This document shows, piece after piece, positions 1-8,856 of a DNA stretch of 21,233 nt. Every line of letters starts with the position of its first letter. Position 1 is the stretch's first letter. The position numbers and the translations under genes are program-made. Source of the DNA: Candidatus Eiseniibacteriota bacterium (GTDB lineage: Bacteria > Arandabacterota > Arandabacteria > JAGLYR01); contig JAGLYR010000129.1 of assembly GCA_023132135.1 (NCBI GenBank), positions 1-21,233 of the forward strand, given 5' to 3'. The notes under the pieces were generated by a model. It was given only the letters and a program-made list of their open reading frames with translations, was not told the DNA's origin and made no database searches.

Positions 1-115
1 TTCGTGCAAGGAGAAGGGCATTAGAACAAGTCCCTAGTCCGTAGTCCCTAGTCCAAGGAGAAGGGCATGAGAAGCAGTGCTTCGTGCCACGTGCCCCGTG
101 CAAGGAAAAGGGCAT
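1..115. repeat. 47-bp modular repeats: shared 14-bp head plus module-specific heptamer array
   Basis: The 14-bp head AAGGAGAAGGGCAT lies at 8-21 and 55-68, and as AAGGAAAAGGGCAT at 102-115, so the copies are spaced by exactly 47 bp twice. Each of the first two heads is followed by 8 bp (22-29, 69-76) and then a 25-bp array of 7-bp units. At 30-54 the units are GTCCCTA, GTCCGTA, GTCCCTA and a final GTCC. At 77-101 they are GTGCTTC, GTGCCAC, GTGCCCC and a final GTGC. The window opens with TTCGTGC, which looks like the end of a further GTGC-type array. Period, part lengths and phase are read directly from the sequence. Likeness to cyanobacterial short tandemly repeated repetitive (STRR) heptamers is by analogy only. 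No gene is seen here, and function is unknown. Confidence 0.85.
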
Positions 116-130
116 CATACCCTCACCCTA

Positions 131-151
131 CCCTCTCCCAGAGGGAGAGGG
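131..151. repeat. perfect 9-bp inverted repeat, cargo of the third module
   Basis: CCCTCTCCC (131-139) and GGGAGAGGG (143-151) form a perfect 9-bp stem with a 3-nt loop. It is preceded by CCCTCACCCTA, so the whole is a CCCT-rich tract ending in a palindrome. It follows the third 14-bp head (102-115) in the place where the first two modules carry heptamer arrays. Similar CCCTCACCCTA-type palindromes are, as far as I recall, dispersed in many bacterial genomes. It could fold in RNA from either strand, but no T-run follows on the minus strand, so a classic terminator is not supported. Confidence 0.75.
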
Positions 152-277
152 AAAGACCGGCTTTCTTGCTCTGCGTAATCTGCGGCCAAGGGTCCACTGT
201 TCTCGCCCTCGCCACGTCGCGGTTATAGCCAGGCACATTCTGCGACCCTCGCAGCAGGGATTCCTGAATATCCCAAG
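152..277. other. gene-free stretch downstream of merR
   Basis: No credible gene is seen between the palindrome and the merR stop. The stretch has a short 9-bp-period repeat, CTGCGTAAT then CTGCGG (171-185), and the hairpin at 240-254 listed separately. Confidence 0.5.
240..254 (-). terminator. possible hairpin downstream of merR
   Basis: On the minus strand CTGCGA, GGG, TCGCAG is a perfect 6-bp stem with a 3-nt loop, 23 nt beyond the merR stop codon. No uridine tract follows, so this is at most a weak or factor-assisted terminator, or a 3'-end stability hairpin. Confidence 0.3.
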
Positions 278-634
278 CTAGTCGAGGAATTCCAACACCC
301 CCTCCAGCTCACCCCGGATGCTCAACAGCAAGGCCCTGCGGTCGACTTCGCGCACAGCGGTTTTCTCGGCGGGGCCATCCGGTTTCCTCCCTGCGCCCAG
401 TCTCTTGCGCGCACCCTCTATGGTCAAACCCTGTTCGTGCAACAGGTGCTTGATCATGGCGACCAGCTCGATGTCTTTCTTGTTGTACATGCGATTGCCC
501 GCCCGGTTCCGGTTAGGGCGGAGCATTCCGAACTCCTTCTCCCAGTAGCGAAGGACGTGGGGCTTCAACTTGAGGAGCTCGGACACTTCTGTAATACTGT
601 GATAGAGTTTGTCGGTACTACGGAGTCTGATCAT
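278..634 (-). CDS. MerR-family transcriptional regulator (short form)
   Basis: A 118-residue protein whose residues about 12-80 form a MerR-type winged helix: the recognition segment around HVLRYWEKEFGMLRP, a wing with NRMYNKKDIE, then a helix with LLHEQGLTIEGARKRLG. MerR proteins bind spaced promoter elements as dimers. The C-terminal part (about 85-118) is short and has no visible cysteine cluster or other effector domain, so no ligand can be proposed. The ATG start is backed by GGAGG 10 nt upstream. It is the last gene of the der-plsY-gpsA-merR run, 94 nt after gpsA. The leader contains a heptamer repeat array. Family is secure; target unknown. Confidence 0.88.
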   Translation of the reverse strand: MIRLRSTDKLYHSITEVSELLKLKPHVLRYWEKEFGMLRPNRNRAGNRMYNKKDIELVAMIKHLLHEQGLTIEGARKRLGAGRKPDGPAEKTAVREVDRRALLLSIRGELEGVLEFLD

Positions 635-653
635 TCTGACTCTCCCTCCTTGC

Positions 654-683
654 CCTATTTCCTATTTCCCATTCACTATTTCC
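654..683. repeat. heptamer array in the merR leader
   Basis: Four successive 7-bp units CCTATTT, CCTATTT, CCCATTC, ACTATTT are followed by CC. The array lies in the 94-bp gap between gpsA and merR. On the minus strand its end runs into GGGCAAGGAGG, which contains the merR Shine-Dalgarno sequence. It has the same 7-bp period as the arrays at 30-54 and 77-101 but a different unit. Confidence 0.75.
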
Positions 684-6130: not shown

Positions 6131-7081
6131 TCACGTTTTCGGGTTTGAGGCGCGCGCCGTGAGAGCCACAATCTCCTCCGCGATGTCCTTCGCCCGGGAT
6201 GCGGGCGATAAGGCAATCCATTGGACACGTGGATCCTTGGAGAACCATGTGATCTGGCGTTTGGCGTAGCGGCGGCTGTTTGTTCTGATCTGTTGGAGCG
6301 CCTGTTCGAGGGAGATGTCCCCGCGGAGCGAGGCGGCGATTTCCCGGTAGCCCACGGCATCCCAGCTTCGTTCCCCCCCCCGCCCCTGTTCAACGAGGCG
6401 ACGAACCTCATCGACCAAGCCTGCGTCCATCATCTGATCGACTCTTCGGTTGATGCGGTCGTAGAGGTCCTCCCGGTTCCGGGTGAGACCGACAACGGTT
6501 GCATCCAAAGGCGGGTTGTCCTCGCTCACGCGCTCCCTGAGCCGCGAGATCGGATCGCCCGTCAGCATGAAGACCTCCATGGCGCGAACGATGCGAACTG
6601 CATCGTTGGGATGAATAGCCTGGGCCGCGTCCGCATCGACCTCTTCGAGGCGTGCGTGGAGCTCGGGCGATCCCAGTTCCTCGATCACCTGCTGAAGCTC
6701 GGCGCGGATTCTCGGCGAAGCGGGCGGACCCAGGAACAGTCCGTCCAGAAGGGCGCGAATGTAGAGCCCGGATCCACCGACGACGATGGGGTATCGACCG
6801 CGACCGTGAATATCCACGATCGCCTCACGCGCCATCCCGGCAAAGCGCACCGCGTTGAAGTCTTCCCCCGGATCCGCGACATCGATGAGATGGTGTGCAG
6901 CGCGCGCAAGGAGTTGTGGTTCCGGCTTTGCAGTGCCGATGTCCATGCCGCGGTAAATCTGCCGCGAGTCGGCTGAGATAATTTCGCCATTGAGGTGCTC
7001 GGCGACGAGGACAGAGATCTCCGTCTTGCCGACGGCCGTTGGACCAACGATGAGGAGGATCGGGACGCCGCTGTCCGTCAT
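6131..7081 (-). CDS. miaA: tRNA dimethylallyltransferase
   Basis: MiaA transfers a dimethylallyl group to N6 of A37 in tRNAs that read codons starting with U, giving i6A. The 316 residues are a typical length. The P-loop GPTAVGKT is at 13-20. The signature SADSRQIYRGMDIGTAKP (36-53) includes the catalytic aspartate D38. GGSGLYIRALLDG (102-114), NDAVRIVRAMEV and RRYAKRQITWF also match. The ATG start shares the sequence ATGA with the mutL stop, a 4-bp overlap. The mutL-miaA order is widely conserved, but hfq, its usual follower in enterobacteria, is absent. MiaB, which acts next on the same base, is encoded upstream in the same run. Confidence 0.97.
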   Translation of the reverse strand: MTDSGVPILLIVGPTAVGKTEISVLVAEHLNGEIISADSRQIYRGMDIGTAKPEPQLLARAAHHLIDVADPGEDFNAVRFAGMAREAIVDIHGRGRYPIVVGGSGLYIRALLDGLFLGPPASPRIRAELQQVIEELGSPELHARLEEVDADAAQAIHPNDAVRIVRAMEVFMLTGDPISRLRERVSEDNPPLDATVVGLTRNREDLYDRINRRVDQMMDAGLVDEVRRLVEQGRGGERSWDAVGYREIAASLRGDISLEQALQQIRTNSRRYAKRQITWFSKDPRVQWIALSPASRAKDIAEEIVALTARASNPKT

Positions 7082-8856
7082 CGTTTGCTCGGGGAGGGTC
7101 GTCTAAAGCGTCTCTCGATCTCCGCTCGATCCACGCGTACGACCGTGGGTCGGCCGTGCGGGCAGCGGTGCCAGTCCTTGCAGGCAAAGAGACGGGAGAG
7201 AAGAGCTGTCTGCTCTTGGGGGTTGAGCGAATCCCCTGCCCGTACGGCGGTGTGGCAGGCAAAGGAAGCTGCCACGTGCGAGACGCGGTCGTCAGGGACT
7301 GATGAGGCCTGTCCCATCTCATCCAGAATATCCATCAGGACCTGTCCGTTCTCCCACCGCTTGAGATCCGCGGGCGTCGCCTCCACCAGCACACTCCGCC
7401 CCCCGAAAGGTCCGATTTCGAAACCCAGCTTCTCCAGATCGTCGCGGTACTCTTCGAGTGCCTGCGCCTCCTGTGGAGTGAGTTCCAGCGTGAGTGGCAA
7501 AAGAAGAGCCTGCCTGGCCGGAGGCGAGCCCTCCAGCGCTCGCTGCGCCTGTTCGTACAGGATTCTCTCATGGGCCGCGTGTTGGTCGATCAGCACCAGG
7601 TCGTCCCCGTCCACGGCCAGCAGGTAGGTTTCCGCCAGAGTGGCGATCAACCGCGGGCCCGGACTCCCATCACCTTTTTCGAACGCGCCGGGGCCGACTT
7701 CCTCTGCAACCTCCTCTGCCGGGCGCACCATCCTGGCCAGCATTTCGGGCGGAATCCCCTCCACCTGCTGCGGAACCCCGGGAGAAGCAGGTGATATGCG
7801 GATCGGGTACGAGGACCGCGTCTCCGCCACGCCCCCACCTGCCGGGAAGCGTCCCCGCCGGAGATCTCTGAGACGGTTTTCAACAGCCCGGAAGAGGTCG
7901 TTGCAGACCTTTCCGCTCTCACGGAAACGCACCTCCCGCTTCGTCGGATGAACGTTGACGTCTACGGACTCGGGGGGCATCTCCAGGTAGATCACGGCCG
8001 CGGGGTAGCGGCGCTGCGGCAGGAAAGGCGAGTAAGCCCGCAGGAGGGTCTGCATGAGAGGCCGGCTCGCGATCCACCTCCGGTTCACGAAAAAGTAGAT
8101 GTGGCCGGCGGAAGAACGGCCCACATCCGGTTCCGAGATCAGTCCCTGGATCCCGGCGGCAAGCCCGGATGGTTCCCCGGATAATTCGAGAGAAGCCCAG
8201 TGGATGCCCCCTCCCAGGACATCTCGGATCCGCTCGGCGGAATCTGCAGCAGCGAGGTAGCGCCCATGGCGGCGCCCATTGACTGAGTAGGAAAATGCAA
8301 TTGCCGGGTAGCCCATAGCGTAGGCCGTGACCACCTGCGTGATCCACCGCACCTCGGTGGCATTGGACTTCAGGAACCTGGAGCGCGCGGGGGTGCGGGC
8401 AAACAGGCTGCGCACCTCAACGGTGGTTCCCGCGGCGCGCGGCGCGTCTATGGGTTCCTCCCGCTTCCCGTAGCGGACCCGCGTTGCCGTGGCCGCATCG
8501 CTTTCTCTGACTCGCGTGATGAGAGTGAGATCCGAGACGGATGAAATCGCCGGAAGGGCTTCTCCTCGAAAGCCCAGGGTCCCGATGCTCCCGAGATCCT
8601 CCGCTGTCCGGAGTTTGCTCGTGGCGTGGCGCTCCAGGGACCGGAGCGCGTCGTCTCGCGACATGCCCTCCCCGTCATCGGCTACGGCCAGGAGCGTTCT
8701 CCCTCCGCCTTCAATGGTGATGTCGATAGACGTGGCGCCGGCATCAATGGAGTTCTCAAGCAACTCCTTGATGACAGAGGCCGGCCGATCGACTACCTCG
8801 CCCGCCGCGATGAGGTTCCTGATCTGGTCAGGGAGTACCCGAATCCTTGGACTCAT
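7078..8856 (-). CDS. mutL: DNA mismatch repair protein MutL with endonuclease site
   Basis: MutL couples mismatch recognition by MutS to downstream repair. The 592-residue protein has the N-terminal GHKL ATPase: ENSIDAG (34-40), DDGEGM (60-65) and GFRGEA (95-100). A variable linker (about 335-400) and a C-terminal dimerisation/endonuclease domain follow. The latter contains DQHAAHERILYE (424-435), which fits DQHA(X)2E(X)4E, plus ACK (558-560) and CPHGRP (565-570). These mark the nicking MutL found in bacteria without the MutH/Dam system. The ATG start lies 29 bp inside the 3' end of mutS, consistent with translational coupling. Confidence 0.97.
   Translation of the reverse strand: MSPRIRVLPDQIRNLIAAGEVVDRPASVIKELLENSIDAGATSIDITIEGGGRTLLAVADDGEGMSRDDALRSLERHATSKLRTAEDLGSIGTLGFRGEALPAISSVSDLTLITRVRESDAATATRVRYGKREEPIDAPRAAGTTVEVRSLFARTPARSRFLKSNATEVRWITQVVTAYAMGYPAIAFSYSVNGRRHGRYLAAADSAERIRDVLGGGIHWASLELSGEPSGLAAGIQGLISEPDVGRSSAGHIYFFVNRRWIASRPLMQTLLRAYSPFLPQRRYPAAVIYLEMPPESVDVNVHPTKREVRFRESGKVCNDLFRAVENRLRDLRRGRFPAGGGVAETRSSYPIRISPASPGVPQQVEGIPPEMLARMVRPAEEVAEEVGPGAFEKGDGSPGPRLIATLAETYLLAVDGDDLVLIDQHAAHERILYEQAQRALEGSPPARQALLLPLTLELTPQEAQALEEYRDDLEKLGFEIGPFGGRSVLVEATPADLKRWENGQVLMDILDEMGQASSVPDDRVSHVAASFACHTAVRAGDSLNPQEQTALLSRLFACKDWHRCPHGRPTVVRVDRAEIERRFRRPSPSKR

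Follow-up and report, generated by a model that had tools for sequence, protein, structure and literature searches.

Head-linked heptamer arrays at the start of a Candidatus Eiseniibacteriota contig: a probable composite of genome-specific small dispersed intergenic repeats

The window analyzed in this study is a 21,233-nucleotide stretch of Candidatus Eiseniibacteriota bacterium DNA (assembly GCA_023132135.1, contig JAGLYR010000129.1, forward strand), which starts at base 1 of its contig (C34) in a 3.4-Mb draft assembly of 345 contigs. The features at positions 1-205 are as follows.

1..7, + strand: 3' end of an upstream GTGC heptamer array (TTC GTGC), with GTGC directly before the head
8..21, + strand: head 1, AAGGAGAAGGGCAT, present in 36 exact copies genome-wide
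22..29, + strand: link 1, TAGAACAA; the same link, TTAGAACAA, precedes 6 GTCC arrays
30..54, + strand: GTCC-type heptamer array of 4 cores with spacers CTA, GTA and CTA (GTCCCTA GTCCGTA GTCCCTA GTCC)
55..68, + strand: head 2, AAGGAGAAGGGCAT, identical to head 1
69..76, + strand: link 2, GAGAAGCA
77..101, + strand: GTGC-type heptamer array of 4 cores with spacers TTC, CAC and CCC (GTGCTTC GTGCCAC GTGCCCC GTGC)
102..115, + strand: head 3, AAGGAAAAGGGCAT, with one change relative to heads 1 and 2
116..205 (3' limit approximate), + strand: C1 body, an CATACCCTCACCC element consisting of a CCCT palindrome and a conserved tail, from an alignment of 13 matches

Since the window starts at contig base 1 and its first seven bases (TTCGTGC) close a further GTGC array, the contig end truncates the composite. 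The geometry given in the earlier note was reproduced base for base, with heads at 8, 55 and 102, 8-bp links and 25-bp arrays of two kinds, and the third head indeed lies in phase (47 and 47 bp) and is followed by the CCCT palindrome from 116. The array at 30-54 is the commonest whole GTCC array of the genome (7 identical copies), and its order is conserved. At head position 6, A is the commoner variant (51/100) and G is found in 36/100. The C1 body contains a hairpin, CCCTCTCCC-AGA-GGGAGAGGG, of -20.2 kcal/mol. An Rfam scan over the window detected a single tRNA and nothing else.

Two other repeats were observed in the window. Positions 248-280 (- strand) belong to a different family of dispersed palindromes (TAGCCTGG[AG]TTATTCA[GT]GAATCCCTGCTGCGAG), whose pattern matched about 74 times in 1.1 Mb of the same genome. 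At 653-681 (+ strand), just upstream of the start of a MerR-like gene, lies a third heptamer element, CCCTATTTCCTATTTCCCATT..., whose other copies show the same order and a common 3' tail, CCTGTGGGT.

The exact head was matched 36 times in the assembly and its reversed control 0 times, which excludes a chance motif. The head search proposed in the earlier note returned many intergenic matches followed by at least two kinds of 7-bp tail or by another body, at quantized spacings that include 47 bp. The two heptamer arrays gave 80 and 101 matches in the same genome. Among 40 other genomes, isolated single or double matches to the head were obtained in five. A combined search for array and head found none across about 85,000 species scanned (a set from which the own genome was possibly left out), both arrays had nothing comparable in 7 members of the phylum, and long GTGC arrays had nothing comparable in about 385 genomes. 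The region is one member of a large, genome-specific family. The heptamer alone is widespread, with GTSCNTA arrays in more than 100 contigs of many phyla, some of them as inverted pairs. In unrelated bacteria (L206, L231, L235 and L256), GTNC-heptamer arrays form inverted pairs with the potential for long hairpins, and their variable spacers may match on both arms.

In 0.96 Mb of sequence, parsed from contigs mostly chosen for holding matches, 100 composites fit one grammar: head (14), link (7-8), (GTNC nnM)n GTNC, then the next head. The units are GTCCNNA and GTGCNNC, and arrays and heads share one direction within each composite. When up to 3 mismatches were allowed, a head was located at offset zero after 92 of 134 arrays, against a chance of about 4e-5 per site; this fraction is somewhat biased upwards, because among the 135 arrays measured single-unit arrays were admitted only near a head. 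Head-to-head distances were 32/33, 40, 46/47 and 53/54 bp, with one of 55 and one of 60, and almost always followed 25/26+7n. The 47-bp module of the earlier note is therefore a real value, second in frequency (10) to 54 bp (17), but it is not fixed and belongs to this series.

The first five head positions, AAGGA, were 94-99% conserved. In front of heads without an upstream array, which were selected for having a body, the 12 preceding bases showed no conservation and the body behind was kept, and the head is accordingly taken as the 5' edge of the unit. The 5' edge is sharp, while the 3' edge varies with the body. For the first arrays of composites, 46/97 were preceded by a link only and 17/97 by neither head nor link, indicating that the 5' edge of the unit is often missing or decayed. 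The earlier idea of a modular dispersed element with a fixed head and an exchangeable tail holds, and is sharpened by this placement of the head.

Several bodies are introduced by the head: GTCC-heptamer arrays, GTGC-heptamer arrays, the CCCT palindromic element and an GTTGAAGCCCC element. The CCCT element begins directly at the head in 12 of 13 aligned matches, and the GTTGAAGCCCC element carries the head in 10/16. A further heptamer element, CCCTATTTCCTATTTCC... (CCCTATTTCC...), is copied whole with a common 3' tail. Hairpins are confined to some bodies (CCCT, GGGGCGACCC); the head-array unit is not palindromic, and folding of the arrays against shuffles gave z about -1.5 with no unit hairpin. 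At L098:3198-3261 (G000:C17), a perfect 29-bp inverted repeat places the head on both sides of an GGGGCGACCC palindrome, and this region has a fold z-score of -13 over 89 nt. When a general inverted-repeat (MITE) organization with a head at either end was looked for, this was the only clear case. When 14-mers with at least 12 copies were grouped in 0.96 Mb of this genome (G000), about 24 distinct repeat groups were distinguished, several of which are combined into intergenic mosaics.

Using codon-scored gene calls made here, 96 of 100 composites were intergenic, though only about 13% of the sequence is intergenic. Where the 5' neighboring gene is co-oriented, the composite begins at a median of 11 bp past its stop codon, and downstream genes lie at a median of 127-172 bp. 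Relative to the 5' neighbor, 39 composites were on the + strand and 56 on the -, without sense-strand bias, and such mixed orientation argues against a function as sense RNA.

Growth by local slippage is expected to give alike neighboring units and lengths that tail off. In the GTCC arrays, the spacer order CTA-GTA-CTA(-CTA) exceeded within-array shuffles, and identical neighbors were depleted (27 vs 52 by within-array shuffling). The GTGC arrays favor the order TAC-CCC-TTC, also above within-array shuffles, and showed no depletion of identical neighbors by the same shuffling (17 vs 18). Lengths pile up at five cores, where mode and ceiling coincide, with few exceptions; the GTCC ceiling is broken by one array. 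Identical 25-bp arrays were found at unlinked loci. Derivation by deletion from one master was supported in part: GTCC arrays of 3 and 4 spacers agreed with it above chance, and short arrays do not discriminate. The conserved order, the GTCC neighbor depletion and the stop near five cores together suggest that the arrays are mostly copies of ordered masters and not products of fresh local slippage. With the further element copied whole, they also suggest that the heptamer structure is old or was made elsewhere and that the finished unit spreads. The heptamer tails are thus exchangeable in that two kinds exist, as the earlier note proposed, but they are mostly copied in order rather than freshly expanded.

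Based on these results, the region is probably a three-unit composite of genome-specific small dispersed intergenic repeats, whose units were copied whole and joined at their heads. Each unit consists of the 14-bp head (AAGGARAAGGGCAT) at the 5' edge, usually a purine-rich link of 7-8 bp, and one body, which is an ordered array of GTCC or GTGC heptamers or a palindromic element such as the CCCT element. This anatomy is shown directly, as are the copy number, the intergenic position, the head-to-tail orientation, the swapping of bodies after the head, the order of the spacers and the quantized length. Whole units were probably copied to new intergenic sites and joined there at their heads, head to tail in one direction, and we infer growth by joining from the mosaic of bodies. 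Mobilization would most likely be REP-like (HUH/Y1 transposase) in trans or proceed by replication template switching. Changes in heptamer number would then mostly be losses of one or several 7-bp steps, and loss of like neighbors by recombination may leave alternating units. Unlike units did adjoin above chance (29/38, P about 7e-4), as expected if recombination removes like neighbors. The elements would persist owing to their intergenic position, where they do little harm.

For the Y1 transposase, one truncated and degraded Y1_Tnp ORF of 89 aa was detected, and an intact RAYT or REP-type Y1 transposase was absent from the assembly, which is 96% complete, so that an intact gene could be missing from it. 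A trans-acting HUH-type enzyme whose gene has since decayed, or is not in the assembly, may be responsible, and so may template switching between short homologies. Neither a target motif nor a target-site duplication could be established, and no empty site could be shown with a phylum sample of 8 genomes, the nearest of which shares only the class with this genome. The sole reverse transcriptase found is a UG9-type defense gene (L334, G000:C168, around 6,958-7,350), and a reverse transcriptase was therefore rejected as the repeat source. A gene with a membrane-protein-like product lies upstream of this UG9-type gene.

The strongest competitor, to which we give a minor share of belief, dispenses with a transposase: short homologies (the head, GTNC cores, TAGCCTG starts) would alone serve to join and exchange units, through recombination or template switching. 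Every array junction lies on GTNC cores, some arrays pass straight into other elements via common CTA/TAGCCTG letters, and no intact REP-type transposase was found in the assembly. The inverted head duplication at L098:3198-3261 fits fold-back copying, and suggests that this occurred at least once. Such joining does not readily account, however, for units that entered some 100 unrelated sites, sharp at their 5' edge and without flanking letters in common. That the heptamer arrays arise locally by replication slippage, to which a 7-bp unit would be the most prone, with the head no more than a common flank, is unlikely. The conserved spacer order, the depletion of identical GTCC neighbors, the five-core ceiling with its mode at the ceiling, the head at offset zero and the identical arrays at unlinked loci all argue against it, although period 7 prevails among the intergenic arrays of this genome (94, against 0 at periods 5 and 6 and 8 at period 8) and the GTSCNTA arrays of many phyla often have identical units. 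Slippage also gains from the report in PMC4679880 (citing Mrazek 2007) that, among long simple repeats, heptanucleotides are the most frequent in most prokaryote genomes.

Regulation at the RNA level, in which the head would resemble a Shine-Dalgarno or CsrA motif through its AAGGA core and the composites would be bound within transcribed leaders or 3' ends, is quite improbable. It draws on the conserved AAGGA at head positions 1-5, on a CsrA gene in the genome, on the start of co-oriented composites just past stop codons and on the proposal of the Beggiatoaceae TAACTGA heptamers as translational sites (PMC4679880), but the sense strand is not favored, A rather than G at position 6 breaks AAGGAG in most heads, and array folding barely beats shuffles. 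We consider very improbable an undescribed one-ended copying, in which an enzyme would recognize the head, copy the 14-bp start plus the following body (heptamer arrays included, these having originated from a telomerase-like reverse transcriptase with 4-nt GTNC re-priming) and append units head to tail in intergenic sites. An assembly artefact at repeat-rich contig ends can be practically dismissed: 15 of the 36 exact matches to the head are no more than 300 bp from a contig end (about 2 expected) and the window starts mid-unit, but most heads lie within contigs and have differing unique flanks. The enrichment at contig ends is attributed to the behavior of short-read assembly at true multicopy repeats.

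Intergenic heptamer repeats have been on record in bacteria for decades, with polymerase slippage as the usual explanation. The spacer order found here indicates that a short heptamer array can be passed on and spread as the fixed body of a small modular repeat with a common head, and the question of slippage versus dispersal becomes testable. The family is also a clear example, beyond the cyanobacteria where such repeats are best known, of reusable parts making up intergenic DNA.

Among known systems, the small dispersed repeats (SDR) of heterocystous cyanobacteria are reportedly very small, dispersed and intergenic, with many families per genome that occur alongside heptamers, and have been proposed as mobile. 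The elements here are likewise small, non-coding, dispersed intergenic units with a defined edge, many unlinked sites, many families and heptamers present. They differ in phylum and sequence, and here the heptamer arrays themselves are the bodies behind a common head; the mobility of the present units is putative.

Heptameric simple repeats (STRR, PMC2670836) include GGGGA(C/T)T of Nostoc and GGGAATC of Xanthomonas (PMC4692102). The arrays here share with STRR the tandem 7-bp units, the intergenic position and the location nearer the 5' neighboring ORF than the downstream ORF, and a similar asymmetry of 5' and 3' gene distances is described for the Xanthomonas repeats (PMC4692102). STRR are longer, near-identical runs, whereas the present arrays are short and ordered, with degeneracy at fixed positions, a cap near five cores and an attached head. 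The comparison with cyanobacterial STRR drawn in the earlier note is thus a fair analogy and not membership: unit order, GTCC neighbor depletion and the length ceiling do not agree with a slippage repeat of near-identical, locally expanding units. The TAACTGA repeats of Beggiatoaceae (PMC4679880) resemble the present arrays in having two to six heptamers per set and many intergenic sets per genome; they use one invariant heptamer, lie mostly just upstream of start codons, and have no head or body exchange described in the part of that paper covered here. Since the units here are GTCCNNA and GTGCNNC, they are not TAACTGA repeats.

With RAYT-associated GTAG/CGTC REPs, REPINs and BIMEs (PMC3733652, PMC3116915, PMC2817692), the elements share many copies and intergenic mosaics; some bodies are palindromic, and one family starts with GTAGGGGCGACCC. 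A strict GTAG palindrome pattern, which was too strict, gave 1 match in the own genome in a survey of 145 genomes. The head-array unit is non-palindromic, clusters lack alternating orientation except for a single inverted pair of heads about a palindrome, and no intact RAYT was found in the assembly, so membership of the REP/REPIN/BIME class was rejected. DRT10 (UG17; PMC12632851) carries out telomerase-like synthesis of tandem-repeat cDNA, and its A-B-A' geometry, with a 4-nt A, resembles GTNC-nnn-GTNC, but the arrays carry several ordered spacers. DRT10 requires a UG17 reverse transcriptase with a matching ncRNA template and was rejected, as the only reverse transcriptase here is UG9-type and, by eye, no 7-periodic GTCC/GTGC template was seen in the 231 bases upstream of its operon. 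The closest kinds are the SDR and STRR of cyanobacteria, the heptameric repeats of Xanthomonas and Beggiatoaceae, and REP/BIME mosaics, and the family is best read as a mosaic of small dispersed, REP-like repeats that works like a dispersed-repeat mosaic.
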